Assembly: GCF_900111015.1 (NCBI RefSeq)
Contig: NZ_FOFS01000006.1
Span: 151,179-215,178, forward strand
Length of the DNA: 64,000 nt
Source: Solimonas aquatica
GTDB taxonomy: Bacteria > Pseudomonadota > Gammaproteobacteria > Nevskiales > Nevskiaceae
Reading direction: 5' to 3'
Shown: positions 6,222-15,455 of the stretch, one piece after another
Position numbering within the stretch: position 1 is the first letter of the stretch
Layout: each line of letters opens with the position of its first letter
Notes under the pieces: model-generated
Told to the model about the DNA's origin: nothing
What the model saw: only the letters and a program-made list of their open reading frames with translations
The model's database searches: none
Program-made: the position numbers and the translations under genes

Positions 6222-6833
6222 CTACAGCCAGAAACCCAGACCCAGATTGATCAGGAAGCCCTGATACTTCAGCTTGTCGTCCAGGGCGTGGTTGGCGCCC
6301 ACCGAGACGTCGCTGTCGAATTTCAGATACCGCACGTCGGCATTGAGCGTCTGGCCACCGGCCAGATTCATGTTGGCACCGACCTGCCCCACGAGGCCCA
6401 CGCTGTTATCCACCTTCACGTGCAGCGAGTCGAGGCTGCCGGTCTCGTCGTGGAAAAAATTGTAGTTGAGGCCCGCGCCCACGTAGGGACGGATCGCGCT
6501 GCCGGCCGAGCCAAAATGAAACTGCCCCACCAGCATCGGCGGCACCAGGCCGACCGAACCCAGGGACGCCCCGGCCGACTTCACTTCCGGCGTCACGAAG
6601 GCCGCCAGCAGATTCACGCCGATGGCCGGCGTCACGAAGTAAGTGGCATCCACTTCCACCGCCGGCTGATCGCCCACATCGAGATCCAGCGGACCATCGG
6701 ACTTGGCATCCGATACCAGATAAGCGACACCGGCATGCAGCAACAGCTTGGAGTCCGCTGCCTGCACCGCGCCTGCACCGATCATGGTCACCGCCCCGAA
6801 AATTCCCGCACACAGCCGCTTGTGCTCAAGCAT
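6222..6833 (-). CDS. OmpW family outer-membrane beta-barrel protein (copy 1)
   Basis: A 203-residue OmpW-type eight-stranded porin. It begins with a signal peptide (about residues 1-26, ending AGAVQA), continues with alternating beta strands such as LLLHAGVAYLVSDAKSDGP and PPMLVGQFHF, and ends NLGLGFWL, the aromatic outer-membrane sorting end. I start at 6833 rather than the ATG at 6848 because GGAGAGAG sits just upstream of 6833 and would lie inside the longer form. About 20 of 180 mature residues differ from the copy at 7884-8504. A sigma-54 core and an upstream element shared with the hupS(2a) promoter precede it, so it is probably co-regulated with the hydrogenase. The substrate is unknown; OmpW proteins are linked to uptake of small hydrophobic compounds. 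Confidence 0.87.
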   Translation of the reverse strand: MLEHKRLCAGIFGAVTMIGAGAVQAADSKLLLHAGVAYLVSDAKSDGPLDLDVGDQPAVEVDATYFVTPAIGVNLLAAFVTPEVKSAGASLGSVGLVPPMLVGQFHFGSAGSAIRPYVGAGLNYNFFHDETGSLDSLHVKVDNSVGLVGQVGANMNLAGGQTLNADVRYLKFDSDVSVGANHALDDKLKYQGFLINLGLGFWL

Positions 6834-6909
6834 GCGCTCTCTCTCCATCGTTCGATTTGGATTTATGGCTCGCGGACTGCGCCTTGCGCGCGCCGCGCGG
6901 CCTGTATGA

Positions 6910-6924
6910 GCAAGGCCGATGCCA
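6910..6924 (-). promoter_or_regulatory. Sigma-54 (-24/-12) promoter of ompW copy 1
   Basis: On the minus strand the sequence reads TGGCAT-N5-TTGC, matching the RpoN consensus TGGCAC-N5-TTGC, about 75 bp upstream of the chosen ompW start. The surrounding bases are almost the same as those of the hupS(2a) promoter at 11846-11860. Two NtrC-type activators are encoded in the same island. Confidence 0.75.
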
Positions 6925-7031
6925 TCGCCATCGAAATTTCTTTATGAAGCAAATTCAGCCGGATACGTCTCAAGGCCGATGGCGTGTGCGCCATCAGGCG
7001 GAAACCGGCTTTGCGTCAGCGACGGCGCTGC

Positions 7032-7048
7032 GCAAAGCAGGCTTGCAG
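7032..7048 (-). promoter_or_regulatory. Candidate activator-binding site upstream of ompW copy 1
   Basis: The 17-mer GCAAAGCAGGCTTGCAG differs at one base from the element at 11965-11981 upstream of hupS(2a). Both lie 105-108 bp upstream of their -24 elements, the usual position for an NtrC-family enhancer site. Binding by the HoxA/HupR-like regulators is inference. Confidence 0.55.
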
Positions 7049-7080
7049 CAACGAGGACTGCAGCGTGAGGTCCGCGCGCT

Positions 7081-7407
7081 TCAGGCCGCGCGACGTGCGG
7101 GCTCCGGCATGCACAAGGCGGCCTGCGTCGAATCCCAATGCACCGGCAAGGATTGCGGCTCGTCGCGCTCGGCATAGCCGTGCTCGCGAAAGAATTCCTG
7201 AGCATGCAGCACGCGATCACCGGCGGCGTTGCGCTGCTTGAGCAGCAGCCCGCCCGCTTCCGGCAGCAAAGGCAGGAGCAGCACATAAGGTTCGCGGCGC
7301 AGCAGGGCCACCGCGCCGAGCTGCGGCAGATAACGCTGGCACAAGGCGGCGCTCAGATAGAGATTGCCGGCGCGCACCAGCACCTGCAGCATCTCAGGCG
7401 CCGGCAT
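7081..7407 (-). CDS. Conserved-looking small protein in the group 2a hydrogenase operon
   Basis: A 108-residue protein I do not recognise. The first 60 residues are hydrophobic and strand-rich (for example VALLRREPYVLLLPLLPEAG), followed by a charged segment with EFFREHGYAERDE and a tail ending MPEPARRAA. No signal peptide is evident and there is no cofactor motif; the two cysteines are isolated. It overlaps the end of the hupW protease gene by 14 bp, so translation is coupled, and it is the last gene of the group 2a hydrogenase unit. A role in maturation or assembly of that hydrogenase is plausible from position only. Confidence 0.65.
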   Translation of the reverse strand: MPAPEMLQVLVRAGNLYLSAALCQRYLPQLGAVALLRREPYVLLLPLLPEAGGLLLKQRNAAGDRVLHAQEFFREHGYAERDEPQSLPVHWDSTQAALCMPEPARRAA

Positions 7408-7867
7408 ACGCCGCGATCTCCCGCTCGATCATCGCCACCACTTTCAAGCCCGCCACCTTCACGGGTTCTGAAATCTGCACGCCCAGCTCCAGACAGGCGG
7501 ACTCGATCAGATAGACGCTGACTTCCTGCGGGAAGGCTTCACGGAAGATGCGCCGGCCCGCGTACAAGGCATGGTCCCAGCGAAAGTCGTGCAGGCTGTA
7601 ACCAGGCTCCGGATGCCCGCTCAACTCCTCGCCCGGCACCTGGAACACCGCACCCGGCTCGGCGCCGCTGCGCGCGGCATCGACGATGATCAGGCGATGC
7701 GCACCACGGGCCTGGAACATCACGTCCATACCGCCGGTGCCGGCATCGAAGATCCGCACCCGTTGGCGAAAATCGTCGCGCAGGCGCGTTTGCAGCGCCT
7801 GCGCGACCAGAACGCCGATGCCGTCATCACAGCGATTGAGATTGCCGCAACCGATGATGGTCAGCAT
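7394..7867 (-). CDS. hupW: Group 2a [NiFe]-hydrogenase maturation endopeptidase
   Basis: A 157-residue M52-family protease that removes the C-terminal extension of the hydrogenase large subunit after nickel insertion. The N terminus MLTIIGCGNLNRCDDGIG has the family GxGN...DDG motif. The following FDAGTGGMDVMFQ and LIIVDAARSGAEPGAVF, and LHDFRWDHAL further on, resemble cyanobacterial HupW rather than HupD/HyaD. The start at 7867 is preferred because the protein then begins at the conserved strand; an ATG five codons upstream exists. The gene follows ompW copy 2 by 16 bp. A separate HupD-type protease for the group 1d enzyme lies at 20453-21130, consistent with one protease per hydrogenase. 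Confidence 0.88.
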   Translation of the reverse strand: MLTIIGCGNLNRCDDGIGVLVAQALQTRLRDDFRQRVRIFDAGTGGMDVMFQARGAHRLIIVDAARSGAEPGAVFQVPGEELSGHPEPGYSLHDFRWDHALYAGRRIFREAFPQEVSVYLIESACLELGVQISEPVKVAGLKVVAMIEREIAAYAGA

Positions 7868-7883
7868 CGCCCGTCTCAACACC

Positions 7884-8504
7884 TTACAACCAGAAACCCA
7901 GGCCCAGGTTGATCAGGAAGCCCTGATACTTGAGCTTGTCGTTCAGCGCCTGATTGGCCCCCACCGTCACGTCGCTGTCGAACTTCAGATAGCGCACATC
8001 GGCGTTCAGCGTCAGGCCTCGGGACAGATTCATGTTGGCGCCGACCTGCCCCACGAGACCGATGCTGTCATCGACCTTCACGCGCAGCGAGTCGAGGCTG
8101 CCGGTCTTGTCGTGGAAAAGGTTGTAGTTGATGCCGGCGCCCAGGTAGGGACGGATCGGACTGCCGGCGGAACCAAAATGGAACTGCCCCACCAGCATCG
8201 GCGGCACCAGCCCGATCGACCCCAAGGATGCGCCCGCAGACTTCACTTCCGGCGTCACGAAGGCCGCCAGCAGGTTCACACCGATGGCCGGCGTCACGAA
8301 GTAAGTGGCGTCCATTTCCAGCGCCGGCTGATCGCCCACGTCCAGATCCAGCGGACCATCGGACTTGGCATCCGACACCAGGTAGCCGATCCCGGCGTGC
8401 AGCAGCAGATGGGAATCCGCCGCCTGCGCCAGCCCGCCGCCGCCCAGCGCCAGCGTTGCCAGCGCCGCCACCAGACCCGTCCTGCACTTGTGCTGTATGT
8501 TCAC
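7884..8504 (-). CDS. OmpW family outer-membrane beta-barrel protein (copy 2)
   Basis: A 206-residue OmpW porin close in sequence to the copy at 6222-6833: identical blocks include DATYFVTPAIGVNLLAAF and DKLKYQGFLINLGLGFWL. The signal peptides differ more than the mature barrels. The start is a GTG at 8504, with AGGAGAG on the minus strand a few bases upstream. It sits inside the group 2a hydrogenase operon, between the HiPIP-like gene and hupW (16 bp to hupW), so it should be expressed with the hydrogenase. A MITE-like repeat begins 55 bp upstream and may have separated it from the hupSL message. The role in H2 metabolism is unknown. Confidence 0.87.
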   Translation of the reverse strand: MNIQHKCRTGLVAALATLALGGGGLAQAADSHLLLHAGIGYLVSDAKSDGPLDLDVGDQPALEMDATYFVTPAIGVNLLAAFVTPEVKSAGASLGSIGLVPPMLVGQFHFGSAGSPIRPYLGAGINYNLFHDKTGSLDSLRVKVDDSIGLVGQVGANMNLSRGLTLNADVRYLKFDSDVTVGANQALNDKLKYQGFLINLGLGFWL

Positions 8505-8559
8505 TGACTCTCCTCTTCGATGTGTTTTTGCGCCGCGCCATGCGAGGCGCGTGAGGCTT

Positions 8560-8725
8560 CTAGTGTCGTGAGTCAGAAATTCGCATGCGAATTCGCCGGT
8601 CTTTTTCGCGTCTGGCGGCGTTGCGCCTCCTCGCCATAGTCACCACTATGCCTCGTCGGCGTGCCTTGCCAGCCACGAAAAATCCTCGGCGACTTCATCA
8701 AGGAACTTCTGACTCACGACACTAG
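8560..8725. mobile_element. MITE-like element with 19-bp perfect terminal inverted repeats
   Basis: The sequence CTAGTGTCGTGAGTCAGAA at 8560-8578 is repeated perfectly inverted at 8707-8725. The 166-bp unit is an imperfect long palindrome around a central ATAGT-N4-ACTAT-type hairpin near 8636-8650. CTAG at both ends could be a 4-bp target duplication, although CTAG is itself palindromic. There is no coding capacity. It lies between the HiPIP-like gene (stop at 8733) and the ompW copy 2 start, and would fold into a very stable RNA that could attenuate transcription. Confidence 0.75.
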
Positions 8726-8732
8726 CCCTGTT

Positions 8733-9047
8733 TCAGATTCGCCAGAGCCGGCACCACCAGTCGGGCTCGACCGGCAAGGCCAGCTCCGGCAGATCGCACC
8801 ACTTGCGATGCACCAGGTAATACATGCACTCCTGGCAACGCATGCGGTCCTCGCCATAGGGACTGTTGGTAAACCCTGAAAGCACCAGCTTGGCTTTCAG
8901 ATCCTTGGCATCGATATCGCGCAGCTGGGTGAGCAACTGGCCAAACTGTGTGTCGTTTTCCGGAAAGGGCTCCGTCTGGGTTTGCAGACCGTCGGCCAGC
9001 ATCCGGCCGATCTTCTCGCGCAACTTCTGCTCCTGATCGCTGTGCAT
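8733..9047 (-). CDS. Small four-cysteine, HiPIP-like protein of the group 2a hydrogenase operon
   Basis: A 104-residue protein with a helical, charged N-terminal half (about residues 1-55) and a C-terminal cysteine module. Cys71, Cys74, Cys84 and Cys99 form C-x2-C-x9-C-x14-C and the protein ends WWCRLWRI. This spacing, with aromatic residues around the last cysteine, resembles high-potential iron-sulfur proteins. A [4Fe-4S] electron carrier for the hydrogenase is therefore the best guess; a zinc or other metal site is the alternative. No signal peptide is visible, which fits a cytoplasmic partner. The gene follows hupL(2a) by 84 bp on the same strand. Confidence 0.72.
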   Translation of the reverse strand: MHSDQEQKLREKIGRMLADGLQTQTEPFPENDTQFGQLLTQLRDIDAKDLKAKLVLSGFTNSPYGEDRMRCQECMYYLVHRKWCDLPELALPVEPDWWCRLWRI

Positions 9048-9131
9048 GCCTGAATCCTTTGTCCCGCGCGCTCAAAAACGGGCGACAACCGCAGCGCCCG
9101 CAGGCGCCGCGGCTGTCGCATCAGACCCGAC

Positions 9132-10727
9132 TCAGGCGGTGCGAAAGCGCGCCAGCTCCTTGCCGGTCTTGCGGTCGTGTGCATGCACCGTGCACACCAG
9201 ACAGGAGTCGAAGGAGCGCGCGACATGGCCCACTTCGACCGGGTCGCTGGTATCGGCGATGGGGGTGCCGACCAGCGCTTCCTCGATGGGACCGCGCGCC
9301 TGCGCGCCGTCGCGCGGTCCGACGTTCCAGGTGGTCGGCGCGATGATCTGGTAGTTCTTGATCTTGCCGTTCTGCACATCGATCCAGTGACAGAGTGCAC
9401 CGCGGATCGCTTCCGTCGCACCCCAGCCGCGGCCATCGCGCTCCTTGGGCTTGATGTACCAGGGATCGTTGAGGCGGAATTCGCGCAGGCAGTGCTCGGC
9501 CTGACGGTAGAGCTTGATGGTTTCGTGCATGCGCGCGATCTGCCGCAGGTGCAGGTTGGGCCCGCCCATCTTCTTGTACATGTCCAGCACCAGACCGTCG
9601 TAGTGCTGCCAGGATTCGCCATGGCGGCCACCGGCGATCAGCTGGCGCGCGAACGGCCCCGCCTCCAGTCGGCCGACATCGGTGTGGCGCACGCTGGTGG
9701 CCCAGGAATACTTGCCGGCGTGATCGATGTCGTTCTTCTGCACCGGCCGCGTGGTACGGTCGAAGGGATGCACATCGGCGCCGCCCTCGTCATACCAGGC
9801 ATGCGTGGTGTTCTCGCGCAGGAACTTCTGATCCATCAGCACGTGGGTGTCGGTGGCACCGTCGTAGACACCGCTCTTCATGATCAGCGCGGCGTTGCGG
9901 CTGTCGATGGTCGGCTTCTGGTACTTGTCCTCGTGCGGCAGATAACCCCAGGACACGTACTTGCCGACGCCGCCGCCGTACTGGTGCAGACCGACATCCA
10001 GGCCCATGCGCCAGTAGAAGCCCAGATCGGAATTGGCATGCTCGGGACGTTCATCGAGCCAGACCATGAAGTCATCGTAGGTCTTGATCTGCTCGTAGCG
10101 CTCCAGGCTGCAGCCCAGCCAGATCGACTCCAGCCAGTTCTTCTTGAAGTACTCCAGCAGCGACCAGGCGCGCGTGATGTCGGTGAGCGTCGGCGCGCAC
10201 ATCACGCCGCCCGGCACCATGTACGAGGAATGCGGCCACTGTCCGCCCAGCAGCGCGTAGATCTCCACCGGCTTGCCGGAGATGGTGACGCCGGCCTCGT
10301 AAGAACTGCCGGTGAACGGCGCGAAGCGCTTCACCGCTTCTTCGTAGAACGGGCTGTTGCGATACTTCTTGTTGGTGAGGTCGATCGCATACAGACCGTA
10401 GAAGTAGCGCGGCTGGCTCTGGATCGATTCCACCAGCTGCCCGAGATTGCGCGCCAGAATCGCATTGCGCGGCACCTCGGTCTGCCAGGCGGTATCCAGA
10501 GCCCAGGCCGCGCAAGTCAGATGCGAAGCCCCGCAGATGCCGCAGGCGCGCGGCGTGACCACCAGTCCGGCCTGCGGGTCCTTGTCACGCAGGATGATTT
10601 CAAAGCCACGGAACAGTTCCGCCTGCGTCCAGGCGTTGGTGACGACGCCGTTCTCGATATCGACACGAACATCCAGATCGCCTTCCACACGCCCGACGGG
10701 CGAGATGTCCAGGGTTTGCACTGCCAT
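9132..10727 (-). CDS. hupL: [NiFe]-hydrogenase large subunit, group 2a
   Basis: A 531-residue catalytic large subunit. The N-terminal nickel ligands are in RACGICGASHL (Cys62, Cys65) and the C-terminal pair in DSCLVCTVH (Cys509, Cys512). The last 16 residues after His515 are the extension removed on maturation. The opening (MAVQTLDISPVGRVEGDLDV), the Ser in place of Pro before the second cysteine pair, and the exact length match cyanobacterial HupL, placing it in group 2a with mycobacterial Huc. The enzyme should oxidise H2 in the cytoplasm; several group 2a enzymes oxidise H2 at atmospheric levels. It is 46 bp downstream of its small subunit and has its own HupW-type protease nearby. Confidence 0.95.
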   Translation of the reverse strand: MAVQTLDISPVGRVEGDLDVRVDIENGVVTNAWTQAELFRGFEIILRDKDPQAGLVVTPRACGICGASHLTCAAWALDTAWQTEVPRNAILARNLGQLVESIQSQPRYFYGLYAIDLTNKKYRNSPFYEEAVKRFAPFTGSSYEAGVTISGKPVEIYALLGGQWPHSSYMVPGGVMCAPTLTDITRAWSLLEYFKKNWLESIWLGCSLERYEQIKTYDDFMVWLDERPEHANSDLGFYWRMGLDVGLHQYGGGVGKYVSWGYLPHEDKYQKPTIDSRNAALIMKSGVYDGATDTHVLMDQKFLRENTTHAWYDEGGADVHPFDRTTRPVQKNDIDHAGKYSWATSVRHTDVGRLEAGPFARQLIAGGRHGESWQHYDGLVLDMYKKMGGPNLHLRQIARMHETIKLYRQAEHCLREFRLNDPWYIKPKERDGRGWGATEAIRGALCHWIDVQNGKIKNYQIIAPTTWNVGPRDGAQARGPIEEALVGTPIADTSDPVEVGHVARSFDSCLVCTVHAHDRKTGKELARFRTA

Positions 10728-10773
10728 GTCATTCTCCTCACGCTATCCCGAGTAATCGTTTTGTGATGCGGCT

Positions 10774-11736
10774 TCAAACCACGAACAGATCTTCTTCCGC
10801 CCACTTCGGTGCCGCGTTCTTCGCCGCACCGGTCAGGGCGATGTAGCCCTTCTTGTCCACGCCCTTGGGCAAGTCCTTGGGCACGCCCATCACGGTCTGG
10901 GTCTTGAACACCGTGCCCGGCGCCAGATCGAAGAACGGGAACTCCGGCTCCGTGCAGCCCATGCAGGGCATGCCGGCGCGGGTCTTGGAGGATTGACGGT
11001 TCCAGAGAATGCGATTGCAGGGCGAGTGCGTCATCGGTCCGCGGCAGCCCAGGTCGTAGAACAGGCAGCCTTTGCGCTGTCCGAATTCCGTGGCGGAGAC
11101 CTTGTAGGCGAAGTGCATGTTGCGGGTGCAGCCGGTCTGCGTGAAGCTCTGGAAGAAGGTCTTCGGCCGCTGCAGATCATCCAGCGCCAGATCGCCGCCG
11201 CGTCCCGTCGCCACCGCCACCACGATCTGGCTGATCCAGTCCGGATGCGCAGGGCAGCCCGGCACATTGATCACCGGCAGACCGGCCTTGGACTTGTAGC
11301 CGGCGCCCAGGAAGCCGCCTTGCGCGCGCTTGAGAAACTGCAGGCCTTGCGAGTCGGAAGGATTCGGTGCGGTGGCAGGAATGCCGCCCCAGGTGGCGCA
11401 ATCGCCGATCGCCACGGTATAGCCGGCGGCGGCGGACAGCTCTTTCACCCACTGCTTCATCGGCCGGCCGGCGAAGCGGTTCCACTCGCCGGTGCCATTG
11501 GGCGCGTTCACCACCGTACCTTCGAAGACAAAGATATCCAGCGCAATCGCGCCGGATACGCAGTCGCGCAGCAGCTTCTGAAGATTGTCGCCGAGTTCCA
11601 CACCCAGCGAGGGATGCCAGAGAATGTTGATACCGAAGTCAGTGACCAGATCGCAGGCGCTGGGTTCTTCGGCATTGAGGAACGACATGGTGTTGCCGGA
11701 ACAAGCACCGCCCTGCAGCCAGAGCAGATTTGCCAT
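10774..11736 (-). CDS. hupS: [NiFe]-hydrogenase small subunit, group 2a
   Basis: A 320-residue iron-sulfur small subunit, the length of cyanobacterial HupS. It starts directly with MANLLWLQGGACSGNTMSF and has no Tat signal and no C-terminal anchor, so it is cytoplasmic. Cluster ligand regions include GDCATWGG, VPGCPAHPDW and GCTEPEFPFFD. The proximal site has a single cysteine in GGACSGN instead of the C-x2-C of group 1 enzymes. I chose the ATG at 11736, which has GAGGAG 8 bp upstream; a longer frame to 11817 adds non-conserved residues. A sigma-54 promoter lies about 110 bp upstream. Confidence 0.95.
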   Translation of the reverse strand: MANLLWLQGGACSGNTMSFLNAEEPSACDLVTDFGINILWHPSLGVELGDNLQKLLRDCVSGAIALDIFVFEGTVVNAPNGTGEWNRFAGRPMKQWVKELSAAAGYTVAIGDCATWGGIPATAPNPSDSQGLQFLKRAQGGFLGAGYKSKAGLPVINVPGCPAHPDWISQIVVAVATGRGGDLALDDLQRPKTFFQSFTQTGCTRNMHFAYKVSATEFGQRKGCLFYDLGCRGPMTHSPCNRILWNRQSSKTRAGMPCMGCTEPEFPFFDLAPGTVFKTQTVMGVPKDLPKGVDKKGYIALTGAAKNAAPKWAEEDLFVV

Positions 11737-11845
11737 TGCGTATTTCTCCTCACATCGTGATGTCTTTATCGACCGCGCATCCCGATCTGCAGACTCGACG
11801 CCGCTTCTTGCGAGCAATGCAGCCGGGTACCTGGCCAGGAGAGGA

Positions 11846-11860
11846 GCAAGGCCAATGCCA
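11846..11860 (-). promoter_or_regulatory. Sigma-54 (-24/-12) promoter of the group 2a hydrogenase operon
   Basis: The minus strand reads TGGCAT-N5-TTGC, with GG and GC at the required 10-base spacing, about 110 bp upstream of the hupS(2a) start. The core and flanks nearly match the ompW promoter at 6910-6924. An AT-rich block lies just upstream (about 11872-11884). Confidence 0.78.
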
Positions 11861-11961
11861 ATGCGAGTCGTTCTTTTTTATTTAGCGATTTCAGCTGCGT
11901 AGCGAATCGCTTCGCAGAAATTCGACGATCGGCATGTAAAGCTGCTTAGCAAATGCTCGGA

Positions 11962-11982
11962 CCTGCAAAGCAAGCTTGCAGG
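11962..11982 (-). promoter_or_regulatory. Candidate enhancer (activator) site of the group 2a hydrogenase operon
   Basis: A 7-bp perfect inverted repeat, CCTGCAA-N7-TTGCAGG, contains GCAAAGCAAGCTTGCAG, the 17-mer repeated with one change at 7032-7048. It lies about 105 bp upstream of the -24 box, suitable for an NtrC-type activator looped to sigma-54 polymerase. The remainder of the 423-bp gap between hupS(2a) and the zinc-ribbon gene shows no gene; a short CTGCG/CGCAG hairpin sits near 11889-11911. Confidence 0.6.
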
Positions 11983-12159: not shown

Positions 12160-12396
12160 TCAGCCGTTGCGGTTGCCGCAGACCGGACATTGCGCTTCGA
12201 GGGTGTAGCCAAACCAGATGCCCTGGCAGCGGCTGCACCAGTGGCCATTGGTCTGCTCGGCGCTCAAACCCAGCTGCCGCGCCAGAGGCGTGATGCCCAG
12301 ATCCTTGAAGCCACCGGGCGTGGCCGGCGGCCGGGTCCGCGACTGCGGAAACGTCCTTACCTTGTTGCCGTCCTGCTGCGGATCGTCGCGAGTCAT
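12160..12396 (-). CDS. Small zinc-ribbon protein of the hydrogenase regulator operon
   Basis: A 78-residue protein. The N-terminal 40 residues are polar and proline-rich, then a four-cysteine knuckle follows: HWCSRCQGIWFG and, 15 residues on, QCPVCGN, which ends the protein. This is a rubredoxin-like or zinc-ribbon fold; only one short module is present, so zinc is more likely than iron. Its start overlaps the stop of the upstream NtrC-type regulator by four bases (ATGA), so it is translated with it. It could be a DNA- or protein-binding accessory of the regulators or a metallochaperone for hydrogenase maturation; sequence alone does not decide. Confidence 0.75.
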   Translation of the reverse strand: MTRDDPQQDGNKVRTFPQSRTRPPATPGGFKDLGITPLARQLGLSAEQTNGHWCSRCQGIWFGYTLEAQCPVCGNRNG

Positions 12397-13865
12397 GAGC
12401 CACCGCCTTCCATCTGCCGTTCATCGAGCTGATAGCGCTTGATCTTGTTGGCCAGGCCCACGCGCGACAGGCCCAGCTCGCGCGCGGCGCGGCTGTGGTT
12501 CCACTTGTGCCGCAACAGCGATTGCGTCACCAGCTCCGCTTCCAGCGACTCGACCTTCTGCTTGAGCGTCTCCTTGCCGCGCAGAAATACTGCGGCGGAG
12601 GTTTCCTTGTTCGGCGCCAGACGCACGAACTCCGGCGACATATGCCGCACCGACAGAAACTCCCCCTCTTCCGCCAGCGCCACCATGCGCCGCACCTCGT
12701 TCTCCAGCTCGCGCACATTGCCGGGAAAAGGATGCGCCTTGAGCCGCCGCATCACTTCCTGCGAGATGCCGGCGATCTTGCGACCGATGGCTTCGGCATA
12801 TTTTTCGGCGGCGTATTCGGCCAGCACCGGGATGTCATCGGGACGTTCACGCAGCGGCGGAATGTCCACCTCGAAACCACGCAGGCGGAAATACAGGTCC
12901 TGGCGGAACTTGCCCTGCTGGACCAGCTCTTTCAGCGGCCGGTTGGAGGCGGCGATGATGCGCACATTGCAGTGGCGGGTGTCGTTGGTGCCCAGCGGCT
13001 TGACCTCGCCTTCCTGCAGGAAGCGCAGCAGGCTGACCTGGAAGGACGGCGAGACCTCGGAGATTTCATCCAGGAACACCGTGCCGCCGTCGGCAGCCGG
13101 AAACAGGCCGAGGCGATCACCGATGGCGCCGGTGAAGGAGCCGCGCTTGTGTCCGAACAGCTCCGAGTGCAGCAGCTCGTCCGGCAGCGCGCCGCAGTTC
13201 TGCGCCAGGAAGGGATAGTCGCTGCGCTGGCTGAAGAAATGCACGGCGCGCGCCATCAGTTCCTTGCCGGTGCCGGTCTCGCCGTGAATCAGCACCGGCA
13301 GATCGGTGACCGCCGCCTTGCGCGCCAGATTGCAGGCCTGCGCCATGCCGTCGCTGGCGAAAATCAGGCGGTCGAAGCGATAGGTTTCCTGCAGCAGCTT
13401 GACGATGCCCTCGGTTTCGCGGCGCAGCACATCGTCGGCAAACTTCAGCTCGCGGCTCAGCAGGCGATGGCGCCGCGCCAGCTCGCGGCCTTCCAGCGCA
13501 CGCTTGACGATCAGCAGCAGATGATCGGGCTGCCAGGGCTTGGCCACGAACTGGTAGACCGCCGCCTCGTTGATCGAGCGGATCATGTCTTCCGGCTCGG
13601 AATAGCCGGTGATGAGGATGCGCAGCACCTCGGGATGGGAGATGCGGGTGCGTGCGAAGAAGTCCACGCCGCTCATGTCCGGCATGCGCTGGTCACTGAG
13701 AATCAGATCGACCGGATGCTTGCCCAGCAGACTCAGGGCCTCGCTGCCGGAGGCAGCGGAAAGGACTTCGTATTGCTCCTGGAGACAGCGCACCAGCGCG
13801 GCCCGCACCTGTGGCTCGTCATCGACGACGAGCAGCAATCCCCCCAGGCCAGGATGCGCGTTCAC
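12393..13865 (-). CDS. NtrC-family response regulator, HoxA/HupR type (copy 2)
   Basis: A 490-residue sigma-54 activator. The receiver domain (about 1-125) has VVDDEP, the phospho-acceptor Asp58 in LSDQRMPD and Lys109. The AAA+ domain has Walker A HGETGTGKE (about 194-202), the sigma-54 contact loop GSFTGA (242-247) and Walker B GTVFLDE. The C-terminal Fis-type helix-turn-helix includes SRAARELGLSRVGLANKIKRY. The start is a GTG at 13865. HoxA and HupR are the hydrogenase regulators of this shape. No hydrogen-sensing hydrogenase or histidine kinase is present in the window. Its likely targets are the two sigma-54 promoters at 11846 and 6910. Confidence 0.88.
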   Translation of the reverse strand: MNAHPGLGGLLLVVDDEPQVRAALVRCLQEQYEVLSAASGSEALSLLGKHPVDLILSDQRMPDMSGVDFFARTRISHPEVLRILITGYSEPEDMIRSINEAAVYQFVAKPWQPDHLLLIVKRALEGRELARRHRLLSRELKFADDVLRRETEGIVKLLQETYRFDRLIFASDGMAQACNLARKAAVTDLPVLIHGETGTGKELMARAVHFFSQRSDYPFLAQNCGALPDELLHSELFGHKRGSFTGAIGDRLGLFPAADGGTVFLDEISEVSPSFQVSLLRFLQEGEVKPLGTNDTRHCNVRIIAASNRPLKELVQQGKFRQDLYFRLRGFEVDIPPLRERPDDIPVLAEYAAEKYAEAIGRKIAGISQEVMRRLKAHPFPGNVRELENEVRRMVALAEEGEFLSVRHMSPEFVRLAPNKETSAAVFLRGKETLKQKVESLEAELVTQSLLRHKWNHSRAARELGLSRVGLANKIKRYQLDERQMEGGGS

Positions 13866-13961
13866 GATGCTTGCCTTTTCAGTTTGTATATTTGCTTAGC
13901 ACACTAGCACGCCGACGCATGAAGTCAATCGCGTCAGCCTGCCGCCCCACCCCGGGGAAAA

Positions 13962-15439
<1,478 letters not shown>

Positions 15440-15455
<16 letters not shown>

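Follow-up and report, generated by a model that had tools for sequence, protein, structure and literature searches.

Sequence evidence for one regulator behind a group-2a-like hydrogenase and an OmpW gene in Solimonas aquatica

Which regulator switches on the group-2a-like [NiFe]-hydrogenase of Solimonas aquatica, and what does an OmpW gene with the same kind of promoter have to do with it? We addressed this in a 64,000-nucleotide stretch of contig NZ_FOFS01000006.1 (positions 151,179 to 215,178; hereafter the window), which carries hupS and hupL for a hydrogenase that we take to belong to subgroup 2a, two OmpW genes (OmpW1 and OmpW2) and two adjacent regulator genes, regA and regB. A preliminary description had proposed that one of these HoxA/HupR-like regulators drives both hupSL and an OmpW gene through paired enhancer and sigma-54 sites. 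This proposal is well supported at the sequence level and can be narrowed to regA, because a palindrome in both promoters co-occurs with regA, is found again at the regA start, and the sigma-54 box follows the state of the GAFTGA motif of the regulator. Hydrogenase and OmpW thus appear to be switched on together by one regulator.

Results

Two composite promoters in the hup locus

Direct reading confirmed the two boxes at 11846-11860 and 6910-6924 (TGGCATTGGCCTTGC and TGGCATCGGCCTTGC). Both have GG at -24 and GC at -12, 10 bp apart, in the form TGGCAY-N5-TTGC expected of a sigma-54 promoter. The 17-mers that had been described about 100 bp upstream were also present (GCAAAGCAAGCTTGCAG at 11965-11981 and GCAAAGCAGGCTTGCAG at 7032-7048); counted from the 15-bp palindrome GCAA-N7-TTGC, the first T of the -24 box follows after a gap of 104 bp at hupS and 107 bp at OmpW1. 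The palindrome has the consensus TGCAAA-N5-TTTGCA and takes the form CTGCAAGC(T/C)TGCTTTGC in the window. In addition to what had been described, each palindrome has a weaker copy in tandem, a further site lies at the regA start and the second OmpW copy has no such promoter (Table 1). NtrC-type upstream activating sequences are arranged in this way, as palindromes in tandem about 70-150 bp ahead of the -24 box; the second OmpW1 copy is weak. The hupS and OmpW1 promoters also align for about 50 bp from the box upstream with a score of 33, compared to 24 for the best of 300 mononucleotide shuffles. Moreover, the OmpW1 17-mer is identical to that of the hupS site in G006, a genome of the same genus.

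Table 1. Positions of promoter elements and genes of the hup locus in the window.
Feature	Position	Strand	Remarks
Sigma-54 (-24/-12) box, hupS promoter	11846..11860	-	read directly
Sigma-54 (-24/-12) box, OmpW1 promoter	6910..6924	-	read directly
hupS upstream palindrome 1	11963..11981	.	19.2 bits; minus-strand sequence CTGCAAGCTTGCTTTGCAG
hupS upstream palindrome 2	11934..11952	.	15.6 bits; 29 bp nearer the box
OmpW1 upstream palindrome 1	7030..7048	.	14.5 bits
OmpW1 upstream palindrome 2, weak	6998..7016	.	9.8 bits; 32 bp nearer the box
Palindrome just ahead of the regA start	13884..13902	.	11.0 bits; same placement in relatives; putative autoregulation
regA, proposed activator	12393..13865	-	receiver + AAA+ (GSFTGA) + Fis-type helix-turn-helix; Pfam, sequence
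regB, second regulator of the same architecture as regA	13962..15455	-	Pfam, sequence
Small Cys-rich open reading frame between regA and hupS	12160..12396	-	no Pfam match; similar frames by eye in G006 and L018
hupS, group-2a-like [NiFe]-hydrogenase small subunit	10774..11736	-	Pfam, tblastn
hupL, large subunit	9132..10727	-	Pfam
104-aa conserved hup-operon protein	8733..9047	-	conserved; no Pfam match
OmpW2, paralogue within the hup operon	7884..8504	-	Pfam; own palindrome or box not found
HupD-type maturation protease	7394..7882	-	Pfam
108-aa conserved protein, last gene ahead of the OmpW1 promoter	7081..7407	-	conserved; no Pfam match
OmpW1 (PF03922), gene under the second composite promoter	6222..6848	-	Pfam

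The composite is rare in the genome

The significance of the composite derives from the whole genome and the relatives, not from the window alone. Within the window, the 17-mer at up to three mismatches did not exceed chance significantly (2 occurrences where 0.71 would be expected, a count reached by 15 of 100 shuffles), and boxes with at most one mismatch were at chance level (22 found vs 25.7 expected). When the genome (31 contigs, 4,427,055 bases) was searched for the 16-bp core TGCAAGCNTGCTTTGC at up to two mismatches, eight places were found, two of them exact (both promoters), none with one mismatch and six with two; the reversed core gave two matches. Random occurrence of the 17-mer through the genome, which the preliminary description had named as counter-evidence, was not seen, the core with 0-1 mismatch being present at both sites only.

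The genome-wide survey covered TGGCA-N6-TTGC boxes. With 48 occurrences, compared to 11 of the reversed pattern, such boxes are not unusual in themselves; it is the combination with the palindrome that is rare. Sites were scored with a symmetric 19-column matrix trained on 43 sites from 33 loci; the window and G006 were excluded, and all training loci lie outside the genus. Only the two reported promoters showed the composite: 2 of the 48 boxes have a site at 60-130 bp, with 19.2 bits for hupS and 14.5 for OmpW1, and the other 46 reach at most 5.9 bits. Among 299,054 strand-positions of the genome (the window, 46 of the 48 box regions and L101), 14 reach 8 bits and 8 reach 10 bits, every site being counted twice because the matrix is symmetric. 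In these scanned stretches, all four sites of at least 10 bits lie inside the window (11963-11981, 11934-11952, 7030-7048 and 13884-13902). Below 10 bits we found 6998-7016 (9.8), a site in L101 (9.9) and one further site of 8-10 bits. The L101 palindrome (CTGCAAATCCGATTTGCCG; L101:6990-7008, contig 11) is located within a response-regulator gene downstream of hoxBC, by a nitrate-sensor-like gene (names assigned by eye).

The palindrome recurs in group-2a-like loci of several phyla

HupS at 1e-60 had matches in 16 of 194 related genomes, the close places being the own genome, G006 (same genus, 96%) and G145 (same class, 87%). Close HupS was present in 5 of 398 genomes of a phylum sample and in 4 of 369 of a class sample, each including the own genome. 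HupS relatives were confirmed by tblastn and the best 80 loci (L001-L080) were used; together with L082, L083 and the window they gave 83 hupS promoters. On an ad hoc score with a maximum of 19.7, 53 of these had a -24/-12-like box of 17 or more located 40-160 bp before the start, and after removal of seven near-duplicates 46 remained, the window and G006 included. An inverted-repeat search of the 190 bp upstream of these boxes yielded GCAAA-N5-TTTGC exactly in 14 promoters and GCAA-N7-TTGC in 16; in ten mononucleotide shuffles of the same promoters any word of these types reached at most 2 and 4, respectively. With up to one mismatch, GCAA-N7-TTGC was present in 38 of the 46, and in 32 of these 38 the gap between best site and box was 80-95 or 103-110 bp. 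Two copies were found in many promoters, as in the window. TGCC-N8-GGCA (15 of 46) was rejected as an operator, being coding sequence of the small Cys-rich reading frame in the eight examples printed.

The matrix located the palindrome at three places. With a threshold of 14 bits and six near-duplicates removed from L001-L080, 54 of 73 loci had a site in the 330 bp ahead of hupS, 29 of 53 had one near the regA start (-130 to +40) and 40 of 59 had one where the 108-aa gene ends (-40 to +130); the matrix is circular for hupS sites of the training loci, not for those of the window and G006 or for regA, TPR-gene and OmpW sites. In 500 bp of hupL, used as control, such sites occurred in 0 of 65 loci. 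With 200 column-permuted matrices the means were 0.6, 0.4 and 0.3 for the three places and the maxima 44, 23 and 33, these high maxima presumably coming from near-identical permutations. The Acidithiobacillus locus L005 also carries the palindrome. In a Bradyrhizobium locus, two palindromes of 26 and 23 bits (L032:3382-3436, centres 3391 and 3427) lie far from hupS and regA.

The gene after the 108-aa gene encodes a TPR protein in most loci (by eye; name from Pfam). Its promoter looks sigma-70 type, since a TTGACA/TAGACA-like element usually follows about 13-14 bp past the palindrome (by eye, in printed lines) and boxes of at least 18 within 450 bp were found in four listed loci only (L005, L035, L038 and L041). 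In the own genome the TPR gene is located on contig 11, with a 22.5-bit site 108 bp before its start.

The palindrome accompanies regA and the box an intact GAFTGA motif

RegA has the receiver, sigma-54 AAA+ domain and Fis-type helix-turn-helix of HoxA and HupR, lies beside hydrogenase genes as they do, and carries GSFTGA, a sigma-54 contact motif of the GAFTGA type. Among 74 loci left after removing near-duplicates, 65 extend far enough upstream to judge the presence of regA. A hupS site of at least 12 bits was found in 51 of 54 loci with regA in reach, compared to 1 of 11 without it (Fisher 1.7e-8, uncorrected for relatedness). When the 54 relatives were split at a box score of 16.2, all 42 loci at or above this value had an intact GAFTGA-type motif, and none of the 12 loci with lower scores did. 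The altered motifs were GAFPGA (seven), GAIPGI (two), GAIPGV, GGFPGA and GAFSGA (one each), and all 12 loci retained a hupS palindrome of at least 12 bits. Changes of GAFTGA, with Pro preferred at position 4, abolish sigma-54 contact according to the available part of PMC3162934.

The same pattern was seen in loci outside the training set that are not near copies of training loci. L204 and L205 combine box and site with an intact motif; in L207 and L208, which agree in every value, the motif is GAFPGA, the best box reaches only 15.0 (no box) and the site is retained. In L206 (81% to L034) box and site are present and the regulator is cut by the contig end. L192-L194, L201-L203 and L209 were not counted as fresh loci: L193, L194, L202, L203 and L209 are the same DNA as L078, L055, L017, L073 and L012 (99.98-100%), and L201 and L192 are nearly identical to earlier loci. 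Because the palindrome tracks regA and the box is missing where GAFTGA is altered, regA acting via sigma-54 is the likely activator.

OmpW genes linked to hup carry the composite

All four hup-linked OmpW copies match PF03922 above the cut-off of 24 (96.7, 96.5, 108.7 and 128.8 bits), and it is from this Pfam family that we call them putative porins. OmpW2 is 81% identical to OmpW1 and is without such a promoter. A three-sequence profile, built from the window, was run in six frames over L001-L102. Besides the window it found OmpW in G006 (L099/L097, one locus) and L018 only, and none in L190-L194 or L201-L209. The G006 protein is 51% identical; its gene has a different neighbourhood, with regB and hoxB on either side, and the distance from its box TGGCATCGGTCTTGC to a 17.9-bit site is 77 bp. 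The L018 protein, from a Sphingomonadaceae metagenome-assembled genome, is 27% identical in the alignment and 32% by tblastn; its gene is flanked by regA and hupS, the distance from its box TGGCACGATATTTGC to a 17-bit site is 89 bp, and ATG codons follow 94 and 115 bp after the box start. Although rare in loci of this kind, hup-linked OmpW thus carries the composite in three of three loci, one of them in Sphingomonadaceae. Throughout L001-L102, L190-L194 and the window, every composite whose box reached 19 stood upstream of hupS or of one of these OmpW genes, several hupS cases being assigned by position. Weaker boxes (17.2-18.7) gave a few others, for instance at the L016 regA site or on opposite strands.

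This type of OmpW (E up to 1e-25) was found among the 194 relatives twice in G000 and once each in G006 and G109. In 6 of 17 plasmid records with hup2a (three with 7-8 kb and three with 5 kb on each side), OmpW appeared neither in the gene lists (PLSDB, incomplete) nor with the profile, and the stretches examined around close HupS in the phylum and class samples held no further OmpW.

The OmpW1 promoter may be a copy of the hupS promoter, in which case chance would have placed OmpW under hydrogenase control and the protein would play no part in oxidising hydrogen. The alignment of the two promoters over about 50 bp and the 17-mer shared with the G006 hupS site would fit such an event, as would the negative profile in the remaining hup2a loci searched. 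However, the composite of the OmpW genes in G006 and L018 is found at other positions, and neither OmpW promoter aligns with the hupS promoter of the same locus better than shuffled sequence does, which argues for repeated recruitment; OmpW is also duplicated in the hup operon of the window. We therefore regard chance copying as possible but doubtful.

What OmpW might contribute was considered in the genomic context of G006. After the 108-aa gene at the end of its hup2a cluster (L099:18191 to L100:4685), a 19.3-bit palindrome without a sigma-54 box of 18 precedes genes for a TonB-dependent receptor, a DUF4198 protein, CbiM and CbiQ/CbiO-like proteins (the last two by eye). This CbiM-type operon is a probable nickel or cobalt importer and suggests metal supply as a theme for OmpW, although such a role is a guess and a rather unlikely one. 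In its simple form, the idea that OmpW replaces a lost nickel importer was rejected, as the own genome retains importers elsewhere. Contig 15 carries a CbiM-type operon together with a TonB-dependent receptor, and no palindrome of 9 bits was present in the part examined; contig 11 carries a NiCoT-like gene (by eye).

RegB and other candidate regulators

Control of the hupS and OmpW1 promoters by the HoxA-like regB, or by both regulators, would be conceivable from its architecture and GSFTGA motif, which it shares with regA, and the G006 OmpW gene lies directly downstream of regB. In addition, some group-1d promoters, presumably regB targets, have related palindromes (GGAAA-N5-TTTCC in L108/L109; 16.2 bits in L116). 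On the other hand, the regulators found beside hupS in L001-L080 are nearer to regA than to regB, the palindrome stands at the start of regA itself in 29 of 53 loci, and the group-1d promoter of the window scores merely 3.5 bits. Control by regB, alone or together with regA, is thus improbable. Another enhancer-binding protein such as NtrC can hardly be the user of the sites, for although NtrC palindromes have the same 17-bp architecture, their half-site (TGCACC-N5-GGTGCA) differs, the site tracks regA across loci, and only 2 of 48 boxes in the own genome have it.

Group-1d promoters did not serve as a clean regB contrast. Of 29 places 12 were scanned, 15 less similar ones and L115 and L120 (short flanks) being left out; no operator emerged from the 11 promoters searched for inverted repeats (L109, a near copy of L108, was omitted). 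ATGC-N9-GCAT (7 of 11; shuffles 2-4) is signal-peptide coding sequence, since it always lies 76 bp before the match start. Upstream of the group-1d hupS of L108 and L109 we observed the palindrome CTGGAAAT(C/A)CGCTTTCCAG, about 109 bp from a weak box, possibly a regB/HoxA site.

Several observations weigh against regA acting through sigma-54 as proposed. The relatives do not represent phylogenetically independent cases, and going by title most of those with an altered motif belong to Rhodobacterales or lie near them. The box cut of 16.2 was chosen post hoc (one altered case scores 16.0); at 17 the counts become 38:0 vs 4:12. The GAFSGA regulator of L031 may be functional, because the available part of PMC3162934 speaks of Thr/Ser at that position, and reassigning it gives 42:0 and 1:11. 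L030 and L062 have regA and a box and no hupS site of 12 bits, L022 has regA with neither box nor site, and L002 has a box and a weak site with no regA in the 10 kb covered. The second OmpW1 palindrome, at 9.8 bits, is weak. Finally, group-1d promoters of three other families (L114, L116 and L117; 3 of the 12 scanned) hold sites of 12.6-16.2 bits, so that the specificity against regB is not clean.

Other features of the locus

HupS is 88% identical both to that of Acidithiobacillus L005 and to that of Nitrospira moscoviensis L021. NHL and Rieske-type genes accompany the group-2a-like loci, an association also reported in the available part of PMC7784904. A close relative of regB precedes a hoxB-like gene (named by eye) in G004, G005, G007 and G008 of the same genus. 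In the HoxA/HupR family, H2 controls the regulator by way of HoxBC/HupUV and a HoxJ/HupT kinase; a hoxBC-like pair (also by eye) is present on contig 11 of the own genome. Between the 104-aa gene and OmpW2 (8560-8725) we found 39-bp inverted repeats, 79% complementary and 88 bp apart, resembling a miniature inverted-repeat transposable element. By eye, 26000-64000 is a degradation cluster that shows no link to the hydrogenase; its genes include TonB receptors and others of acyl-CoA and ketosteroid-dehydrogenase-like type.

Discussion

The sites, their spacing and tandem copies, their conservation, and the links to regA and its GAFTGA motif are legible in the DNA itself, and they point to a shared regulatory module for hydrogenase and OmpW that we regard as real. 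RegA is most likely an NtrC-type activator that binds the palindrome and drives hupSL and OmpW1 through sigma-54. In this mechanism regA, encoded next door, would recognise TGCAAA-N5-TTTGCA, and its dimers would occupy the tandem sites 75-107 bp upstream of the -24 box. Their contact with sigma-54 RNA polymerase at the two boxes (11846-11860 and 6910-6924) would set off transcription of OmpW1 and of the hupSL operon. The regA gene itself is probably under RegA control as well, via 13884-13902. Binding and activation are what we infer from this arrangement, as are a hydrogen response and whatever part OmpW may play in oxidising H2.

The system resembles the HoxA/HupR control of uptake hydrogenases. 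Like HoxA of Cupriavidus necator and HupR of Rhodobacter capsulatus, regA is an NtrC-type regulator beside hydrogenase genes; unlike them, it would act on a group-2a-like enzyme and include an OmpW gene. The palindrome TGCAAA-N5-TTTGCA also differs from the HupR site, TTG-N5-CAA. R. capsulatus HupR has a defective GAFTGA and is sigma-70 dependent (PMC3162934, as far as available), a state that 12 of the 54 regA relatives resemble. The studied HoxA/HupR cases are active unphosphorylated, according to the parts available of PMC10073562 and PMC5133592. In a MAFFT alignment of 54 relatives, the phosphoacceptor column of regA holds Glu in 20 and Asp in 27, while five have some other residue and two a gap; regA of the window has Asp. 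This suggests kinase-free regA regulators in many species, and with Glu in 20 of 54, H2 signalling via phosphorylation is not to be assumed.

HupR control of group-2 hupSL has been predicted in Acidithiobacillia, with a de novo motif upstream of hupSL (PMC12194929). There too the regulator lies beside group-2 hupSL, as a one-component HupR; in the part available, that work is confined to its class and names no OmpW target and no regA or TPR-gene site. In cyanobacteria, hydrogenase control by NtcA has been described (PMC2661322, available in part). No cross-phylum operator for group-2a hydrogenases was found in the open-access literature, which does not take in most subscription papers; an open-access search for HoxA binding sites gave, by title, nothing on hydrogenase HoxA. 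In enterobacteria, OmpW is controlled by FNR and stress, unlike the arrangement at OmpW1. An open-access search for OmpW, hydrogenase and sigma-54 together returned a fish-pathogen genome alone. An OmpW gene was lower in an rpoN mutant of Paraburkholderia in nodules (PMC5979394), and the accessible parts of this paper and of PMC9045368 do not tie OmpW to hydrogenase.

One regulator lineage might serve group-2a hydrogenases in two modes simultaneously: as a sigma-54 enhancer-binding protein for hupS and OmpW, and as a classical regulator of sigma-70-type promoters for the TPR/maturation operon and the regulator gene itself. Where GAFTGA has been lost, as in Rhodobacterales and others, hupS would then have shifted to the second mode, and OmpW would be a dedicated outer-membrane limb, perhaps a nickel or iron route, recruited independently in at least two lineages. 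As a whole this combination is speculative and unlikely.

Group-2a hydrogenases scavenge atmospheric H2 in several bacterial groups (PMC7784904, as far as available). A cross-phylum operator allows the prediction of hydrogen-response genes across many genomes. That GAFTGA and the -24/-12 box are missing together offers a natural experiment in polymerase change by an enhancer-binding protein. The link to OmpW raises the possibility that hydrogen oxidation makes demands on the outer membrane, and the same wiring in a distant lineage hints that burning hydrogen may require a change in the outer membrane.

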